From contig MKVX01000005.1 in the NCBI GenBank assembly GCA_001899255.1, positions 62,001 through 126,000 of the forward strand: 64,000 nucleotides of DNA. The letters are read 5' to 3'. The position numbers were made by a program, and so were the translations under genes. This DNA is from Rhizobiales bacterium 62-47 (GTDB lineage Bacteria; Pseudomonadota; Alphaproteobacteria; Rhizobiales; Xanthobacteraceae). The notes below the pieces were generated by a model, which saw only the letters and a list, made by a program, of their open reading frames with translations, searched no databases and was not told the origin of the DNA. Below, one piece after another: positions 51,788 through 64,000 of the stretch. Position 1 is the first letter of the stretch. Every line of letters starts with the position of its first letter.

Positions 51788-53341
51788 TCACTCGGCAGCT
51801 GCGCCCATTCCGTGACCCTCGTCAAGGACGGCAGCCAACTTCTGCTTCAAGGCATCGCCGTATTCGTCCGCATCCGCCGCCTTCCTCAAGGCCGCGAGCT
51901 GAGCCGCAGCGTCGCCGCGGCCTTCCAATGCCGGCAGAGCCGCCATGATCGTCTGGAATTTTGCCGTGGCACGGTCATGCGTATCGCCATAGCCCTTGAC
52001 CAACTCGAGGCAGCGCGCGACTTCGACCGCCAGCGCATAGTCGCGGGACACGACATCCGCGACCTGCGCCAGCCAAACCTCATGCCGTTTGGATTCCGCC
52101 ATCCAGCGCAACGAACGCCGCCGCAGCGGCTTCAGGCGCGCGACCAGCGACAGCAGAAGAAATCCGCGTACGGACGACGTCTTGACGACATAGCCCTTTC
52201 TCGTCACGCGATCGAGCACGGCCGAAGCAATTTTGCTCCGCATCATCCAGCGCCCCAGCGATGCGGGTACTGTCTCCACGATCTCCTGACGCCTCGGGTG
52301 CATGTATTCGGCGATCTCGACGATCTCGCCGTCTTTCGCTCGCACTTCCGAACGGACGCGATCGAAACGGCTCCGCCTGATTTTGAGTTCGGCAACACGG
52401 ATCGTGTCCTCGAACGACATGGCGACCGCGAGCACACGCGCCACCTCGCTCAGAAGCTCGCCTGAACTGCCGCTGCGTGAAGCTTCAATGGCCAGAATCG
52501 GCTCCAGCCGCTTGAGGTACAGCCGCGCATAGTCTTCGTCCTGATAATCGATCAGGCGCAGCACGCCGCTACTCACCACCGGACGCGACGTATCCGTCAA
52601 CTGGCTCGAGATGCCGGACAGCAGAGCCGGGACACCCGGATCAGGCGCAGCCGCAACAATCGGCAGCGCGGCTTCGGTGTTGATGGTCCCCGCGCTCACG
52701 GCATCGATACCTGCCTTGAATGCGCGCACGCTGGGCTCGACGCCGACACCGCCACGCCGAATCGTGGCTTCGAACGCCGTGCGCTGGAATGGCAGCACGC
52801 CGGAGGCAGCCAGCGCTCCGAACAGCACCGCGGTGACAGGACTTCCAGCCGCTTCCGCAATCCCGGACATATCGAACGCGAAAAGGCGCGCGGCCGCCTC
52901 CTCGCTCGATTTCAAAAGCGCATGACTATCGACACGATCGTCCTGGACCGCCACGCGTTCCTGCATGGTAAAGACGCGGTGGGTCGACGTGATCAGAACG
53001 GTGCGATCCGGCGTCACGAGACCGCGTGCAATGGCACGTCCGGCCTCCATGAACTCAGATGCCAGAACGATATCGACGTCTCCCGGCACCGGCATCAGCG
53101 CCAGTACCGGCAATTGCTCGCGCGCCGCTTTTTTCGGAAACAGCTCGACGTAATACACGGTCGCACCGGTTCGCTGTGCGACGCCCGGAACCGAGGTCTT
53201 TTGCGCCAGATAGCCGCCATGCTCGGCCAGATCGACGATCCAGTCGGTCAGCACGCCGCCGCCTTCGCCACCCATCGCAAGGATCGCGATGGTGATCGGA
53301 CGAACCCGCGAGGTATCGGTGGAATTTGTTGCGTTCATCAT
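51788..53341 (-). CDS. iorB: indolepyruvate ferredoxin oxidoreductase beta subunit, long form
   Basis: This 517-aa protein starts at the ATG at 53341, which overlaps the iorA stop by four bases. The amino half is the gamma/beta domain of 2-oxoacid:ferredoxin oxidoreductases (ITIAILAMGGEGGGVLTDWIVDLAEHGGYLAQKTSVPGVAQRTGATVYYVELFP). The C-terminal part (about residues 220-517) is the DUF6537-type extension found in bacterial IorB proteins and is absent from the 200-aa archaeal subunit. With IorA it turns an aryl-pyruvate into aryl-acetyl-CoA and reduces ferredoxin. Confidence 0.9.
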   Translation of the reverse strand: MMNATNSTDTSRVRPITIAILAMGGEGGGVLTDWIVDLAEHGGYLAQKTSVPGVAQRTGATVYYVELFPKKAAREQLPVLALMPVPGDVDIVLASEFMEAGRAIARGLVTPDRTVLITSTHRVFTMQERVAVQDDRVDSHALLKSSEEAAARLFAFDMSGIAEAAGSPVTAVLFGALAASGVLPFQRTAFEATIRRGGVGVEPSVRAFKAGIDAVSAGTINTEAALPIVAAAPDPGVPALLSGISSQLTDTSRPVVSSGVLRLIDYQDEDYARLYLKRLEPILAIEASRSGSSGELLSEVARVLAVAMSFEDTIRVAELKIRRSRFDRVRSEVRAKDGEIVEIAEYMHPRRQEIVETVPASLGRWMMRSKIASAVLDRVTRKGYVVKTSSVRGFLLLSLVARLKPLRRRSLRWMAESKRHEVWLAQVADVVSRDYALAVEVARCLELVKGYGDTHDRATAKFQTIMAALPALEGRGDAAAQLAALRKAADADEYGDALKQKLAAVLDEGHGMGAAAE

Positions 53342-55467
53342 TGAACTTCCACCCGCCGCTGCAGGAAGCCAATCACGATATCCCGCACGCTCTGCTTGGC
53401 GCGATCCCACCAGGTCGGATTATTGACGATCGATGCCTTGTAGAAAGACGGGCATAGCACGGCCGCGTGCGAGACCTCGCCGCAATGCCCGCATCCGACG
53501 CAGGAATCGACCACCTTGGTGATGGGTTGCCGCCGTAAGGGATCGGGATTTGGCGCAATCGTCAAAGACGGGCAACCGGACAGGCGGATACAGGAATGAT
53601 CGCCGGTGCAGGTGTCGGCGTCGACCCCGAACCGCTCGCGCACAACACGCTCGCCACGCTTGATGGCCTCGCGCGTCAACGGTTTCTCCCGGCGCTGCTT
53701 GTTCAGCATGCACTCCGATGAAGCGATAACGACCTTCGGTCCCTCGGATTTGGTCTGCAACGCCTCGCGCAGCACGTCGCGCATCTTGGTGACATCGTAA
53801 GTTCGGGTGACGTGCTTGACCCATTCGACGCCAACGCCACGGATCGCCTTTTCGATCGGATGTTGCGTCGACCGGGTCGCGATATTGCCGGACGACGACA
53901 ACACGTCCTGCCCGCCGGTCGCAGCCGCATAGCCGTTGTCGACGACGAGGATCACGCTGTCCGTTTTGTTGAAGACCTGATGACCGACGCTGCTGATGAG
54001 ACCCGAATGCCACAGCCCGCCGTCTCCGATCACGGCGACGGGACGCTTGCCGTTTTGGCCCGACAGCGGCGAGGCGCTGGCCCCGCCCACGCCATAGCCA
54101 ACATTGGTGTTGCCGAGATTGAATGGCTCGAGCGCCGCGAACGTATGGCAGCCGACGTCGTTGCTGATGTGCAGTGGCCCCATCTCGCGTTGAACCAGCT
54201 TCATGGCGCTGAAGATCGGGCGCTCCGGACAGCCGGTGCAGAACGACGGCTGCCGGCCATGGACGTTATCGCCAAGCTTGTCGATCGCGGCGGCCAGGGT
54301 CTTGTTGGTTCGGTTCGGCGGCTCCGGTGCGAGAAGGCCCGGGCCATAGGCCTCGCAGAATCGCCGAAGTCCCGTCTGAAGCACGCCCCCGGTGTATTCG
54401 CCAGCCTTCGGCAGAACGGATTTGCCTTCCACCCTGGTCTGCAGATCGGCGCGGCGCAGAACGGTGTTGATCCCCTGCTCGATGAATTCGGGTTGCCCTT
54501 CCTCGATCACCAGCACAGCTTTCTTGCCGGCGCAGAAGCGGACAAGCTCCTCATCGATCAACGGATAGGTCACGTTCATGACATAGAGCGGGATGCGGCT
54601 GTTGCCGTAGACATCGGCCAGGCCGAGGATCTCCATGGCCCGCAGTACGCCGTTGTACATGCCGCCCTGCATGATGATGCCGACATCGTCGGTCTCGCCA
54701 TCGAAGAATTCGTTGAGCTTGTTGTCTGCGATGAATTTCACCGCCGCCGGCCAGCGATGTTCGACCTTCTCGCGCTCATGATTGTAGATGTAGGGCGGCA
54801 GCATATAGCGGCTCACGTCGCGCACCGGCTTCGTCAGGGCGTCGTCCCGCGAGAAGGCAGGCTTCACATTATCCTTGGCGATGAAACTGCCATAGACGTG
54901 ACAGGCGCGGATACGAAGCTGCAGGATGACCGCGGTGTTGCTGGCCTCGGAGAGTTGAAAGCCTTTCTCCACCGCATCGACAATCGACTGGACGTTCGGC
55001 CGCGGATCGAGCAGCCACATTTGCGATTTCATCGCGAAGGCGTGGCTGCGCTCCTGATTGATCGACGACCCCTCGCCATAGTCTTCGCCGATAATGACCA
55101 GCGCCCCGCCCTTCACGCCGCCTGACGACAGGGCCGCGAGCGCATCCGACGCGACGTTGACGCCGACCGGGGCCTTGAAGGTGCACGCGCCACGCATCGG
55201 ATAATTGACCGAGGCCGCAAGCGCCGCCGCGGCCGCGGCCTCATTGGCGCTCGACTCGAAACGCACGCCGAGCCGCTGCAGGAGATCGTTGGCATCGTTG
55301 AGGACATCGATCAGATGCGAAATCGGCGCTCCCTGATAGCCCGATACATAGGAAACGCCGGATTGCAGCAGCGCCTTGGTGACCGCGAGAATCGCCTCAC
55401 CCCGGAATTCCGTTCCGGCGCCAATTCCGAGTTGCTTGACTTCTTCCTTGAATGAACGTTCGGCCAT
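53338..55467 (-). CDS. iorA: indolepyruvate ferredoxin oxidoreductase alpha subunit
   Basis: This 709-aa thiamine-diphosphate enzyme decarboxylates aryl-pyruvates (from Trp, Tyr or Phe) to aryl-acetyl-CoA. It has an N-terminal pyrimidine-binding domain (SYVSGYQGAPISHLIDVLNDA), a C-terminal thiamine-diphosphate domain (VIGDGGLWHSGLISSVGHQVFNKTDSVILVVDNGYAAATGG) and two iron-sulfur motifs at the end, CTGDHSCIRLSGCP and CVGCGHCGEVSHAAVLCP. The first motif has wider Cys spacing than a plain ferredoxin. It is the first gene of the minus-strand operon iorA-iorB-thioesterase. Confidence 0.92.
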   Translation of the reverse strand: MAERSFKEEVKQLGIGAGTEFRGEAILAVTKALLQSGVSYVSGYQGAPISHLIDVLNDANDLLQRLGVRFESSANEAAAAAALAASVNYPMRGACTFKAPVGVNVASDALAALSSGGVKGGALVIIGEDYGEGSSINQERSHAFAMKSQMWLLDPRPNVQSIVDAVEKGFQLSEASNTAVILQLRIRACHVYGSFIAKDNVKPAFSRDDALTKPVRDVSRYMLPPYIYNHEREKVEHRWPAAVKFIADNKLNEFFDGETDDVGIIMQGGMYNGVLRAMEILGLADVYGNSRIPLYVMNVTYPLIDEELVRFCAGKKAVLVIEEGQPEFIEQGINTVLRRADLQTRVEGKSVLPKAGEYTGGVLQTGLRRFCEAYGPGLLAPEPPNRTNKTLAAAIDKLGDNVHGRQPSFCTGCPERPIFSAMKLVQREMGPLHISNDVGCHTFAALEPFNLGNTNVGYGVGGASASPLSGQNGKRPVAVIGDGGLWHSGLISSVGHQVFNKTDSVILVVDNGYAAATGGQDVLSSSGNIATRSTQHPIEKAIRGVGVEWVKHVTRTYDVTKMRDVLREALQTKSEGPKVVIASSECMLNKQRREKPLTREAIKRGERVVRERFGVDADTCTGDHSCIRLSGCPSLTIAPNPDPLRRQPITKVVDSCVGCGHCGEVSHAAVLCPSFYKASIVNNPTWWDRAKQSVRDIVIGFLQRRVEVQ

Positions 55468-59756: not shown

Positions 59757-59780
59757 ACAACCAACGCACGGGAGGCACAC

Positions 59781-61769
59781 ATGGGCCGACAAGGGAAGCA
59801 GAACTACACGCGACTCACCGAGCCGCTCGTCCGCGACAACGGTGTGCTGCGGCCCGCCTCTTGGGATGAGGCCCTCGATCGCGCGGCCGAAGGTTTCCGC
59901 CGCAATCGCGAACTCCACGGCCCCGACGCGTTCGGCATGTTCGCCTGCTCCCGCTCGACCAACGAGTTGAACTTCATCGCTCAGAAGTTCGCCCGGGCGG
60001 TGATCGGCACCAACAACATCGACTCCTGTAACCGCACTTGACACGCTCCTAGCGTCGCCGGTCTGGTGACAGTATTTGGTGCAGGCGGTGGTACCTCGTC
60101 TTATCGCGAGATCGAGGATGCGGATCTTATTATCTTCTGGGGCTCCAACGCCCGGGAAGCGCATCCGATTTTCTTCCATCACGCGCTGAAAGGTATCCAT
60201 AAGGGAGCCAAGGTCTACGCGGTCGACCCGCGCCGATCCAAGACGGCCGAGTGGGCCGACACTTGGCTCGGCCTGGATGTCGGCACCGACATCGCGTTGG
60301 CCTACGGCATTGGCCGCGAGATCATCCACGCCGGATTGGTCAACGAGGCTTTCATCGCGAACGCCACCCTCGGCTTCGAGGACTACATCGCCGCGTGTGA
60401 ACCGTGGACGCTGGACGTCACCTCTCGTGAGACGGGAGTGCCGGCGGAGCTGATTCGCGAACTCGCGCACGACTATGCCAAGGCGAAGCGCGCGCAGTTG
60501 TGCTGGACGCTCGGCATCACCGAGCATCACAACGGCACCGACAACGTGCGGGCGCTGTGTAACCTCGCGCTGCTCACAGGGCAGGTCGGCCGCTGGGGCG
60601 CGGGCCTGGTGCCGGTGCGCGGCCAGAACAACGTCCAGGGCGGCGGCGACATGGGGGCGATTCCCAAGAACCTGCCGGGATTCCAGGACGTCGGGAATCC
60701 CGAACACCGGGCGAAGTTCGAGCGCTTGTGGGGCGTTACGATGCCTCCGAAATACGGCTTGACGCTCTCGGAGATGATGGAAGCGATGGACGAGGGGCAC
60801 CTCACCAGCGTCTACATCGTGGGCGAGAACCCGGTACAGTCCGACGCGGATACCACGGCGGTGGCGCGGCGACTGAGGAACCTCGACCATCTGGTCGTGC
60901 AGGACATCTTCCTCACCAAGACCGCGACGTTCGCCGACGTGGTGCTCCCCTCCGCTGCGGCGTGGTGCGAGAGCGAAGGCACCTTCACCAGCAGCGAACG
61001 ACGCGTTCAGCTCGTGCGCAAGGCGCTGGAGCCGCCCGGCAGCGCGAAGGACGACGTCGAGATCATCCGCCTGGTCGCGCAGCGTCTGGGGCACGATTGG
61101 CCGATCCAGACTGCGGAGGAGATCTGGGACGAACTGCGCGAAGTGTCGCCGGCGCATCATGGAATGTCCTACCGGCTGCTCAACGAGCGAGGCGGATTGC
61201 AGTGGCCCTTCCCGGACGAGGACGGGCCCGAATCGCCGTTCCTGCACGGCCGGCTCTGGGAGAAGGACCCCGCGAAGCGCGGACGCCTGGCGCCATTCGG
61301 AATCATCGAGCACAAGCTGCCGGTCGACAAGCTCAACGACGAATTCCCGCTGCGCCTGACGACGGGCCGGCGGCTGACCGACTACAACACGGGCGTACAG
61401 TCGGGTGGCTTCAACTCGCCGATCCGCGTCGGCGCCTGCGTCGATATCTCTCCGGAGGATATGGTTCGGCTCGGCATCAACGAGGGCGAGACGGTCCGGG
61501 TGTCTTCGCGCCGGGGATCCGTACTGGCAGCCGCACGCCGCGATCCGGGACTTCGTCCCGGATTGCTGTTCATGGCCTGCAACTTCCCCGACGAAATGGA
61601 CACCAACGCGCTCACCATCGAAGCGAACGATCCGATCGCCAAAACCGCGGAGTTCAAGGCAACGGCAGTCAAGGTGGAGAAGACCAACGAGCCTCTGCCC
61701 GAAGAAGGCATTATGGCCGACGCTGCCGATCACGAGCGCCAGCACAAAGAATTGGCGACCGTGAACTAG
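59781..61769 (+). CDS. selenocysteine-containing formate dehydrogenase catalytic subunit (in-frame TGA, lacks the N-terminal [4Fe-4S] domain)
   Basis: This molybdopterin (or tungstopterin) enzyme oxidises formate to CO2. The ATG at 59781 has GGGAGG five bases before it. Reading through the TGA at 60039-60041 gives 662 aa with selenocysteine at residue 87. The sequence before it is TNNIDSCNRT and after it HAPSVAGLVTVFGAGGGTSS, the exact context of the catalytic Sec/Cys in formate dehydrogenases, where the next His is also conserved. A SECIS-like stem-loop follows. The protein begins at the point where other members have just finished their CxxC-type [4Fe-4S] domain, so that domain is missing here. 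The C-terminal molydopterin-binding domain (PLRLTTGRRLTDYNTGVQSGG) is complete. A NuoE-NuoF fusion and a FeS subunit follow, which points to NAD as acceptor. Confidence 0.9.
60039..60041 (+). other. TGA recoded as selenocysteine (residue 87)
   Basis: The codon is in frame with both the upstream and downstream coding sequence and falls at the catalytic position of the formate dehydrogenase family. No frameshift is needed to join the two halves. Recoding needs SelA, SelB, SelC and SelD, which must be encoded outside the window. Confidence 0.85.
60054..60070 (+). promoter_or_regulatory. bacterial SECIS stem-loop
   Basis: GUCGCC and GGUGAC form a six-pair stem, with one G-U pair, around the loop GGUCU. 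It begins 12 bases after the UGA. Loop sequence and spacing closely match the SelB-binding SECIS of E. coli fdhF, whose apical loop also contains GGUCU about 11 bases after the UGA stem start. Confidence 0.8.
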
Positions 61770-61782
61770 GGAAGGAAGAGCT

Positions 61783-63636
61783 GTGGACTTGAAGTTCTCC
61801 AACGCCGAGCCGTTCCCCGAGGAACGCGACGCGGTTGATCGGCTGCTTGGGGCCGCCGAGGGTGGCTGGCACGGTGGCGAGCGCGACGAGAAGGATCTCC
61901 GGCGTGCGCACACCGGCCACGCGGCACGGTCTCGGCGGCACCTCGTCCTCGAGGCGCTGCACGCGGTGAACGACCGCGTCGGCTGGATCAGTCCCGGCGC
62001 GCTGAACTACATCGGAAAGCGCCTCAGCGTAGCGGCAGCCGATGTCTATAGCGTCGCGACGTTCTATGCGTTGTTCTCGACCAACATGCGGCCGAAGCGC
62101 ATCGTCCATGTCTGCACCGACATCGCCTGCATGGCGCGCGGATCTAAGGAGGTCTGCGCCGATCTCGAGAAGCGGCTGGGCCCGGCCGGTGCCATGAGCG
62201 GCTGGAAGCACAGTCCCTGCCTCGGCGTGTGCGAACGCGCGCCGGCCGCATTGGCGGTGGAAGCCGGCGACCCGCCCCACGAGCACCTGATCGGACCGGT
62301 CACCGTCGATGAGGTCGTCCTCGCGCTCAATGACGGTCCCGAGGCACTGGCAGCCGAGGCGCCGCCAATCATGGCGGTGCCGCAGGCCGGCCAGGAGGGC
62401 CTGATGTTGCTCAAGCGCGTCGGCCGGGTCGATCCGGAGAGCATCGACGACTACATCGCGGCAGACGGCTACGCCGGACTGCGGCGGGCATTCGAAATGG
62501 AGCCCGGACAGGTCATCAGCGAGGTCAAGGACTCCCGGCTGATGGGCCGCGGCGGCGCCGCGTTCCCTACCGGCATCAAGTGGGAGAGTACCGCCAAGCA
62601 GCCGGCGACGCCGCGCTACCTCGTCTGCAACGCCGACGAGAGCGAGCCCGGCACGTTCAAGGATCGCGCCATTCTCGAAGGCGACCCGTTCGCGCTGATC
62701 GAGTCGATGACCATCGCCGGTTACGCCATTGGCGCCGAGCGCGGCTACATCTACCTGCGCGGCGAATATCCCCGCGCCTACCGCATGCTGCGCAACGCCA
62801 TCGAGAAAGCGCGCGAACGCGGCTTCCTGGGTGAGAACATCCAGGGCAGCGGCTGCAGCTTCGAACTGGAGATCCGGCGCGGTGCCGGGGCCTACATCTG
62901 CGGCGAGGAGACCGCGATCTTCAACTCGATCGAGGGCTATCGCGGCGAACCGCGCTCGAAACCGCCCTTCCCGTTCGAGTTCGGATTGTTCGGCAAGCCG
63001 ACCGTGGTGAATAACGTCGAGACTCTGTGCAACGTGCCGCTGATCGTGCAGATGGGCGGCGCCGAGTACGCCAAGATCGGGGCCGAGGGCTCCACCGGGC
63101 CGAAGCTGTTCTGCGTGTCGGGCAACCTCGCGCGCCCCGGCGTCTATGAAGTGCCGTTCGGCGTCACCTTGGGCGACGTGCTCGAATTGGCCGGCGGAGT
63201 TACGCCCGGCCGCACCCTGCAAGCGGTGTTGCTCGGCGGCGCGGCAGGCGGCTTCGTGCGCGCTGACGAACTCGACATCCCGCTCACTTTCGAGGGTGTC
63301 CGCGCCAACAACTCCACTCTGGGCTCCGGCGTGGTGCTGGCGTTCGACGACACCGTCGACCTGACCGGCGTTCTGCTGCGCATCGCCCGCTTCTTCCGCG
63401 ACGAATCCTGCGGCCAGTGCGTGCCTTGCCGAGTGGGCACGGTGCGCCAGGAAGAGGCGCTGCTGCGCATCGCGCACAACCGCCGCGACGCCGCGGCCAA
63501 GGGACGCGACGTCGGCCTGCTGCGCGATGTCGGCCGGGCAATGAAAGATGCCTCGATCTGTGGTCTCGGCCAGGCTGCCTGGAATGCCATCGAGTCGGCG
63601 ATCGACCGACTCGGTGTCCTGGAGGAAACCAAATGA
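61783..63636 (+). CDS. fused NuoE-NuoF-type diaphorase subunit of NAD-dependent formate dehydrogenase
   Basis: This 617-aa protein carries electrons from the iron-sulfur chain to NAD. It starts at a GTG at 61783, after GGAAGGAAGAG. Residues about 40-180 form a NuoE/FdsG thioredoxin-like domain with [2Fe-2S] ligands in VCTDIACMARGS and SPCLGVCERAP. After a short linker the NuoF/FdsB part has the FMN site MGRGGAAFPTGIKW, the NADH-site segment CNADESEPGTFKDR, GAGAYICGEETAIFNSIEG, and the [4Fe-4S] ligands ESCGQCVPCRVGT plus a distal Cys (DASICGLGQ). In most fds operons these are two genes. It overlaps the next gene by four bases. Confidence 0.93.
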   Translation: MDLKFSNAEPFPEERDAVDRLLGAAEGGWHGGERDEKDLRRAHTGHAARSRRHLVLEALHAVNDRVGWISPGALNYIGKRLSVAAADVYSVATFYALFSTNMRPKRIVHVCTDIACMARGSKEVCADLEKRLGPAGAMSGWKHSPCLGVCERAPAALAVEAGDPPHEHLIGPVTVDEVVLALNDGPEALAAEAPPIMAVPQAGQEGLMLLKRVGRVDPESIDDYIAADGYAGLRRAFEMEPGQVISEVKDSRLMGRGGAAFPTGIKWESTAKQPATPRYLVCNADESEPGTFKDRAILEGDPFALIESMTIAGYAIGAERGYIYLRGEYPRAYRMLRNAIEKARERGFLGENIQGSGCSFELEIRRGAGAYICGEETAIFNSIEGYRGEPRSKPPFPFEFGLFGKPTVVNNVETLCNVPLIVQMGGAEYAKIGAEGSTGPKLFCVSGNLARPGVYEVPFGVTLGDVLELAGGVTPGRTLQAVLLGGAAGGFVRADELDIPLTFEGVRANNSTLGSGVVLAFDDTVDLTGVLLRIARFFRDESCGQCVPCRVGTVRQEEALLRIAHNRRDAAAKGRDVGLLRDVGRAMKDASICGLGQAAWNAIESAIDRLGVLEETK

Positions 63637-64000
63637 ACGCACACGATCCCGGTGCTGCCGGCAGGATGAACAAATCCGTTCCGCTGGTCACGATCACCAT
63701 CGACGGCGAGGAGGTCAGCGTTCCGGACGGCAGCACCATCCTGACGGCCTGCAATGCAGCGGGGAAGGACACGCCGACGCTGTGCTACGGCGATACGCTT
63801 ACGCCCAAGAATGCCTGCCGCGTCTGCATGGTCGAGTTGAAAGGCTCGCGCGTCCTCGTGCCCTCCTGCTCCCGCAAGGTCCAGCCCGGCATGGAGGTCT
63901 TGACCGACAGCGAGCGGGTGCGGCACAGCCGGCGACTCGTTCTCGAGCTGCTCGGTTCATCGGTCGACTTGTCCACCACGCCGCGGATCGACGAGTGGAT
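63633..64000 (+). CDS. [2Fe-2S]/Fe-S electron-transfer subunit of formate dehydrogenase (FdsA N-terminal/HoxU-like), 3' end outside the window
   Basis: The ATG at 63633 overlaps the stop of the diaphorase gene by four bases. The 122 visible residues contain the plant-type [2Fe-2S] domain: TITIDGEEVSVPDGSTILTACNAAG, then TLCYGDTLTPKNACRVCMVEL and VPSCSRKVQPGMEV, giving four Cys ligands. They continue into the His-Cys3 region typical of NuoG, HoxU and the amino half of FdsA. I infer that the missing [4Fe-4S] domain of the catalytic subunit may lie at the far end of this protein, but the window ends first. Confidence 0.88.
   Translation, partial: MNAHDPGAAGRMNKSVPLVTITIDGEEVSVPDGSTILTACNAAGKDTPTLCYGDTLTPKNACRVCMVELKGSRVLVPSCSRKVQPGMEVLTDSERVRHSRRLVLELLGSSVDLSTTPRIDEW

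Follow-up and report, generated by a model that had tools for sequence, protein, structure and literature searches.

A putative selenocysteine formate dehydrogenase in Rhizobiales bacterium 62-47 and its partial decoding kit of probable actinobacterial origin

Introduction

Rhizobiales bacterium 62-47 carries a formate dehydrogenase (FDH) gene, fdhA, whose reading frame is crossed by a single in-frame UGA. The locus lies in a 64,000-nucleotide stretch that we call the window (C5:62001-126000, on contig C5; coordinates without a prefix count from the window start). Is this UGA a stop, or is it read as selenocysteine (Sec), and if so by which decoding machinery? A first-pass annotation had proposed a selenoprotein with a matching selenocysteine insertion sequence (SECIS) hairpin. 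Our comparisons argue that fdhA very probably does encode a selenoprotein, and that the module to which it belongs, fdhA-fdsGB-fdsN convergent with selB2 and selC2, is of actinobacterial origin. Sec decoding appears to have moved as a partial kit, comprising a selenoprotein, a SelB and a tRNA, that was grafted onto resident selA/selD machinery.

Results

A formate dehydrogenase frame crossed by one UGA

59781..61769, plus strand: fdhA, the catalytic, molybdenum cofactor-binding portion of a split formate dehydrogenase of FdsA type, predicted Sec codon 87, 662 amino acids (Pfam PF00384, PF01568; TIGR01591)
60039..60041, plus strand: in-frame UGA, putative Sec codon, aligned with the Sec/cysteine (Cys) position of solved FDHs

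The frame starts at an ATG at 59781, with GGGAGG at 59770-59775, 6-11 bases 5' of the ATG, and terminates at a TAG at 61767-61769, giving 662 residues including U87. That a single frame is broken only by the TGA at 60039-60041 can be read directly from the sequence, and the list of open reading frames (ORFs) cuts the gene into ORFs of 102 and 567 amino acids, as the first-pass annotation had predicted. Its placement of the UGA at the Sec/Cys active-site position agrees with the alignment to solved FDHs, where codon 87 falls on Cys or X and His is the next residue. Using a protein scan with one genome per species we found 311 relatives, the best 80 of which were kept; these, 30 further actinobacterial loci and the window made up a comparison set that, after removal of duplicates, held 40 loci with TGA (Sec), of which 14 are from proteobacteria and 26 from actinobacteria, alongside 70 Cys loci. 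The 13 other proteobacterial loci with TGA are 82-92% identical to fdhA and come from alphaproteobacteria or an unplaced Pseudomonadota bacterium (11 loci) and from Comamonas (two). TGA is thus present in 14/14 proteobacterial module loci.

Plain ORF calling, which gives two ORFs, would fit a true stop codon that leaves either a decaying pseudogene or two proteins. We consider this explanation extremely improbable: the same UGA is crossed without any other stop in all 12 proteobacterial frames checked, the ratio of non-synonymous to synonymous substitution (dN/dS) in fdhA is 0.07-0.15 (11 pairs), well under 1, and the hairpin described below is tied to Sec. We found fdhA relatives at E <= 1e-100 in 283 of 397 genomes sampled from the order; among the matches listed, only fdhA itself exceeded 41% identity, and only fdhA and one 40% match have TGA, which bears out, for this order, the earlier remark that Sec is unusual for an enzyme of this type.

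The hairpin 3' of the UGA is tied to selenocysteine

60054..60070, plus strand: predicted SECIS hairpin GUCGCC-GGUCU-GGUGAC, with U17, G23 and U24 in E. coli numbering; U17 pairable with A31

SECIS bases are numbered after PMC8659212, a review in which U17, G23 and U24 are given as fixed in E. coli, U17 and G23 as SelB contacts, and U17 as looped out of the stem. The annotated hairpin, GTCGCC-GGTCT-GGTGAC with loop GGUCU, does start 12 bases 3' of the TGA. Its claimed likeness to the E. coli SECIS in loop and spacing was nearly right, with GGUCU at positions 22-26 from the UGA, but the stem differs, being continuous so that U17 can pair. The hairpin has the bacterial hallmarks of a position close 3' of the UGA, G23/U24 in the apical loop and a U17, but not the bulged U17, as the continuous 6-bp stem is predicted at -9.1 kcal/mol and the bulged form at -4.5 kcal/mol. 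The RNA-fold scan suggested with the annotation gave a fold over 50 bases, but its energy did not beat that of shuffled sequences (z -0.44; 58/200 fold as well). Redrawing synonymous codons, with usage drawn from 12 stretches of the same genome, produced both the loop and the stem in 2.7% of cases, because GGT-CTG encodes a conserved Gly-Leu. An Rfam search of the hairpin region found no SECIS; its one hit, on the opposite strand, was a fortuitous match to an unrelated family.

Comparison across loci gave a different picture. The GGUCU loop occurs in 40/40 distinct Sec loci versus 7/70 distinct Cys loci, with the Gly codon being GGT in the same proportions (40/40 and 7/70), and the full 6-bp stem (6/6 pairs) in 38/40 Sec loci versus none of the 70 Cys loci; the two Sec loci without a plain 6-bp stem are L031 and L033 (L-numbers denote fetched loci and G-numbers genomes; L027 belongs to G004, L028 to G005, L031 to G008 and L033 to G010). 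At stem pair 18-30, 24 of the 31 distinct Sec rows have C-G and the other 7 have G-C. In the Sec alignment, the number of cells with double-sided change and the covariation score were reached by 0/500 shuffles, and the number of pairs with double-sided change (1) by 432/500. When the 3' side was slid by 3 columns, 79.6% of cells paired (97.8% unslid) and the covariation score was 0.078 (0.294 unslid). These comparisons link the hairpin to Sec, not Cys, and turn a weak single-sequence signal into a strong one.

A second SelB and a decayed tRNA-Sec adjoin the operon

61783..63636, plus strand: fdsGB, fused NuoE-like and NuoF-like subunit, GTG start, 617 amino acids (Pfam PF01257, PF01512, PF10531, PF10589)
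63633..64000, plus strand, continuing to C5:126592 (592 bases beyond the window): fdsN, separate FdsA N-terminal part, 319 amino acids, with 2Fe-2S, 4Fe-4S and Molybdop_Fe4S4 domains
C5:126673-128472, minus strand, beyond the window: selB2, second SelB, 599 amino acids (TIGR00475, 274.1 bits)
About C5:128525-128620, minus strand, beyond the window: selC2, decayed actinobacterial-type tRNA-Sec, recognised by identity to an intact module copy, place and orientation

On its own, fdhA scores 643.2 bits against TIGR01591 (model positions 51-672), under the curated cut-off of 666.25, because model positions 1-50 match fdsN (59.4 bits); neither gene passes the cut-off alone, and together they span the whole model. 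In the alignment to 6tg9_A, an FdsA chain whose PDB entry we take to be Rhodobacter capsulatus FdsABG, fdhA corresponds to residues 307-939 and fdsN to residues 24-304. As the two genes align to separate parts of 6tg9_A, FdsA has been cut in two and re-ordered. The likeness to the NAD-dependent FDH FdsABG thus lies in the FdsA-aligned parts and in the NuoE- and NuoF-like domains of fdsGB, whereas here FdsA is split, with the catalytic half opening the operon and the iron-sulfur half closing it, the G and B subunits are fused, and Sec is predicted.

The selB2 gene is convergent with the fdh operon, 80 bases beyond fdsN. Its TIGR00475 score of 274.1 bits lies above the cut-off of 242.25, identifying it as a SelB; it has a SelB-wing_3 domain (E 3.2e-17), and SelB-wing_2 was found in the other SelB of this genome, SelB1, but not in SelB2. 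Upstream of selB2, selC2 matches an intact module tRNA at 67/96 positions without gaps, where positions of the scanned sequence average 25.5 identities (standard deviation 4.5) and the next best, the resident tRNA-Sec, reaches 52. With RF01852 it scores 12.7 bits, below the functional cut-off of 47 bits, and has many broken pairs; since the E-value of 7.1 is not significant, the call rests on identity, place and orientation.

The host has a complete resident selenocysteine system

The first-pass annotation had advised a search of the rest of the genome for the sel genes. All four were found, on contig C2: tRNA-Sec (79.4 bits, anticodon UCA), SelB1 (429 bits), SelA (590 bits) and SelD (429 bits). 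The same contig has an fdoG-like gene that likewise contains an in-frame TGA, adjoined by ORFs that by eye resemble fdoH, fdoI and fdhE. The resident tRNA-Sec (C2:19423-19514) lies wholly within the SelB1 frame (L010:9402-11729, contig C2), and selC nested in selB is an arrangement described for Alphaproteobacteria by Mukai 2021 (PMC8124441). A third FDH of the genome (C2:320767-322593, L297) is a full-length, fused FdsA with Cys at the active site; compared with this enzyme of its own genome, fdhA is split and has a predicted Sec. A hidden second active tRNA-Sec in the host is not supported, as the seven remaining hits of the tRNA-Sec model are tRNA-Ser, -Leu and -Gly.

With the sel genes present in the host, the frame open in 12/12 loci, the UGA at the active site and a hairpin that tracks Sec, the earlier proposal of a 662-residue selenoprotein is supported, and a selenoprotein is the best reading of the frame that these comparisons suggest.

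Actinobacterial ancestry of the module

An fdhA tree was built with a quick method from 71 rows with the Sec column masked. In it, all 14 proteobacterial rows fall into a single clade (SH-like approximate likelihood ratio test, SH-aLRT, 100) inside actinobacterial rows. Sec occupies most deep branches, with the branch of the outgroup L284 flagged as long. Three Sec/Cys changes are needed, and the proteobacterial clade and two Cys clades meet at an unresolved fork; a re-gain of Sec from a Cys ancestor is not needed by this tree, yet may have occurred, being compatible with it. Actinobacterial relatives with all three genes visible have the same order, fdhA-fdsGB-fdsN, at 60-68% fdhA identity, and 26 actinobacterial loci share Sec with a GGUCU hairpin, as here. 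The Cys form occurs in the named genera Streptomyces, Amycolatopsis, Lentzea, Saccharopolyspora and Kutzneria.

In a tree of 63 SelBs, for which the strand of each row was chosen by the GTPase motif, the ten module SelBs group as a single clade (100/100) that lies within the actinobacterial SelBs, next to L164 and L165 (100/100); L164, in which neither strand shows the motif, was used in reverse orientation, where it is readable as SelB. Resident SelBs group with other alphaproteobacterial rows, and the joining of the Comamonas SelB1s with L141 is flagged as a possible long-branch effect. SelB2 has matches in 225 of 396 actinobacterial genomes (best 63% identity) and in 30 of the 397 genomes of the order, where the SelB2 type occurs only in this genome and the others are at most 42% identical. 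The intact module tRNA of L026 is 89-92% identical to four actinobacterial tRNA-Sec and 63% identical to the resident one. At the level of sequence, these data demonstrate the actinobacterial ancestry of fdhA, SelB2 and selC2, and the decay of selC2.

Actinobacterial DNA mis-binned or mis-assembled into an alphaproteobacterial genome could also place SelB2 among actinobacteria in the tree, and most of the 13 other carriers are metagenome-assembled genomes. Such an artefact is scarcely credible given that the module sits inside a 461-kb contig of a 4.9-Mb genome (23 contigs) that is given as 100% complete and 0.13% contaminated, that 13 other genomes also carry it, among them that of the isolate Comamonas badia DSM 17552, that identity to the actinobacterial genes found is at most 68% for fdhA and 63% for SelB2, and that in L030, L032 and L034 the module stands beside resident-type selA and selD.

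Around 19 actinobacterial Sec loci (11-20 kb fetched for each) we found no selB, selA, selD or tRNA-Sec. The fdh-selB-selC linkage, seen in proteobacteria only, would therefore have arisen in an unsampled donor or after transfer. A plasmid search found no record with an fdhA relative of at least 60% identity (236 records had matches, all below). Relatives of SelB2 do occur on plasmids of Tsukamurella (61%) and Arthrobacter (60%). The Arthrobacter plasmid (NZ_CP110115.1, 22539-38335; L299) is typed as conjugative and has a cluster of fdh, an iron-sulfur subunit, nrfD, selD, selA and selB beside a Tn3-family transposase, and so represents a case of Sec decoding genes on a possibly self-transferring plasmid. 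A conjugative actinobacterial plasmid with an fdh and sel cluster is one possible vehicle for the module.

The module in fourteen genomes

selB2 follows fdh in nine of the 13 other genomes, and hence in 10/14 including this one. In all 10 it is a full-length open frame, and its dN/dS of 0.14-0.23 (nine pairs) indicates purifying selection. The module tRNA is intact in five of these 10, namely L026, L032, L034, L035 and L036, where RF01852 recognises it. It is decayed in the host and in L024, where a resident-type tRNA-Sec is nested in a 3' piece of a resident-type selB before selB2 (L024:13097-13411; 74%, 108 residues). In L025 a degenerate resident-type tRNA-Sec replaces it upstream of selB2, in L029 it is a deleted remnant, and in L030 the 330 bases upstream of selB2 yielded no copy. 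In L024 and L025 a tRNA-Sec of resident type has thus come to stand next to the foreign SelB.

Since RF01852 also matches in 14/14 control genomes, over the cut-off in 5, only tRNA-Sec matches of at least 72 bits were counted in other genomes, and matches of 47-53 bits were left out. By this count the five selB2 genomes without an intact module tRNA all have a resident tRNA-Sec, the four without a resident one (G009, G011, G012 and G013) all have an intact module copy, and G003 has both. The module tRNA is thus intact in 4/4 genomes without and 1/6 with a resident tRNA-Sec (one-sided Fisher 0.024, calculated by hand and ignoring kinship).

Each of the 14 module genomes has one SelA above the cut-off. 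In G009 and G011 we found no SelB1 and no FdoG; SelB2 is their only SelB over the cut-off, the module tRNA their only tRNA-Sec of at least 72 bits, and their SelA and SelD adjoin the module, with 75% and 84-85% identity to their resident counterparts in this genome. The Comamonas genomes G012 and G013 have two SelBs of different origin, and their only tRNA-Sec of at least 72 bits is the actinobacterial-type module copy, so the resident SelB would have to use the module tRNA.

A selB2 match was missing from four module genomes, G004, G005, G008 and G010, among which G005 and G010 are fragmented drafts and the G005 contig ends at fdsN. In L027 (G004), the fdsGB dN/dS against this genome is 0.21, the highest of 11 (others 0.08-0.16), which is too little to call decay.

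Nucleotide flanks are common only to the two Comamonas loci and, in the sel cluster, to L030, L032 and L034, and, as pieces of 0.9-1.6 kb, to L024 and L027 and to L031 and L033. The window flanks match none of the 12 other loci tested by nucleotide comparison. As flanks are mostly unshared, the module has settled in several places. Elsewhere in the window, on the minus strand at 51788-53344 and 53338-55467, lie genes that by eye resemble, and presumably are, those for indolepyruvate ferredoxin oxidoreductase subunits.

Two hairpin forms and the choice between two SelBs

L031:10259-10300 and L033:8559-8600: re-shaped, bulged-U17 fdhA hairpin in two near kin without selB2

Which of the two SelBs reads fdhA? 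We consider SelB2 the probable main reader in this host, with reservations; it is favoured because selB2 has been maintained though the adjoining tRNA was lost or decayed in five hosts with their own tRNA. A less probable but serious alternative, differing in this one step, is that the resident SelB1 decodes fdhA and that SelB2 is a redundant passenger or back-up. Consistent with it, the fdhA UGA and open frame are kept in genomes with SelB1 only (G004 and G008; the two drafts G005 and G010 being fragmented), SelB1 and its selC are intact in the host, and the fdhA element and the FdoG element each have U17, G23 and U24, counted from the UGA. A redundant SelB2 is harder to reconcile with a gene kept full-length under purifying selection in 10 genomes, half of which have a module tRNA that is decayed, replaced or missing.

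The hairpins themselves bear on the choice. In FdoG elements U17 is bulged in 6/8 genomes including this one, and not in the two Comamonas. The fdhA hairpins of L031 and L033 also have the bulged-U17 form (-8.3 versus -3.5, energies that belong to the named forms, as the lowest-energy fold of the stretch differs at some loci, e.g. L027), reached through base changes that also turn a Thr into His; none of the other 12 proteobacterial loci has lost this Thr. L031, L033, L032 and L034 form one group of four in the fdhA tree (support 100), internally an unresolved fork. L031 and L033 have SelB1 only and the bulged form, as if SelB1 needed the bulge, whereas L032 and L034 have SelB2 only and keep the continuous stem. 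Within this group the form of the hairpin goes with the SelB present, which may reflect a single event. L027 and L028 have no selB2 match, yet an unchanged continuous-stem hairpin, and speak against a strict need of hairpin change after SelB2 absence.

We tentatively suggest, at somewhat lower confidence than we would give to decoding by SelB1, two SECIS dialects, in which SelB1 would read the bulged-U17 FdoG element and SelB2 the continuous-stem fdhA element, with one shared pool of tRNA-Sec. That SelB2 decodes both selenoproteins of the host and SelB1 is the redundant one seems very unlikely. G009 and G011 do manage with SelB2 and the module tRNA, but these genomes are without FdoG, and SelB1 is present in all 10 genomes with FdoG (in two of which FdoG is seen as a fragment only; the SelB1 of G010 is partial, at a contig end), a pattern that suggests one SelB for each selenoprotein.

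Discussion

The explanation that we favour would run as follows. The host tRNA-Sec would be charged by host SelA and SelD; the fdhA hairpin would be bound by a SelB, most probably SelB2 as the imported and cognate one, which would deliver Sec-tRNA to the UGA at codon 87; and Sec would ligate the Mo/W of an NAD-linked formate dehydrogenase in the cytoplasm. The two systems appear to accept each other's tRNA-Sec, so the imported selC2 would be dispensable and has decayed here, with selB2 intact under purifying selection. According to PMC8659212, selC of many organisms complements E. coli selC mutants, which fits the loss of selC2. Sec insertion, expression, the acting SelB and the enzyme's reaction are all inferred from sequence.

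Several observations weigh against this account. fdhA by itself misses the TIGR01591 cut-off (643 versus 666), its first 50 positions being in fdsN. The hairpin in this single sequence is not beyond chance and by itself is weak evidence, and the covariation support across Sec loci comes from one stem pair. Four of the 14 genomes have the fdhA UGA without selB2, and as the hairpin of L027, on a 1.7-Mb contig, is unchanged, SelB1 may suffice there. Finally, a SelB from Bacillus functioned poorly with the ribosomes of E. coli (PMC8659212); by analogy an imported SelB would be hindered at first, a point that cuts both ways.

Parts of this picture have precedents. PMC1794560 describes transfer of selA, selB and selC together with FDH among Proteobacteria, and in PMC1273633 too these three genes moved with a selenoprotein gene. 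The present module resembles the fdoGHI-selABCD transfer among Proteobacteria (Zhang 2006, PMC1794560; Mukai 2021, PMC8124441) in that decoding genes co-move with FDH, and differs in that selB and selC move without selA and selD, into hosts that have both. Photobacterium profundum 3TCK has two complete sel operons in one genome, according to the Secmarker paper (PMC5330540); the likeness is two different sel sets per genome, whereas here one complete resident set stands beside a foreign SelB with a decayed tRNA. Within the accessible portions of the open-access literature (including PMC13188914, PMC5029168 and PMC1273633), we found no report of a selB-selC-selenoprotein module lacking selA that passed from Actinobacteria to Proteobacteria. 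Transfer of sel genes with FDH, selC nested in selB and two sel operons were already known, and within those portions the partial kit is apparently unreported.

The findings have consequences for annotation, as fdhA and its relatives are prone to be annotated as two fragments, and for the study of Sec decoding. The 14 genomes form a natural series of outcomes, in which both systems are kept, the imported tRNA is decayed, the resident SelB and tRNA are absent, or the imported SelB is absent. This series makes testable the specificity of SelB for SECIS and what lets a foreign SelB work. If the two dialects are real, loss of SelB2 would tend to convert the fdhA hairpin to the bulged form at the cost of an amino-acid change, and the module would be a natural, portable SelB-SECIS pair working beside the resident pair. 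Selenoprotein production would also profit from a SelB-SECIS pair that is established in proteobacteria yet separate from the resident one.

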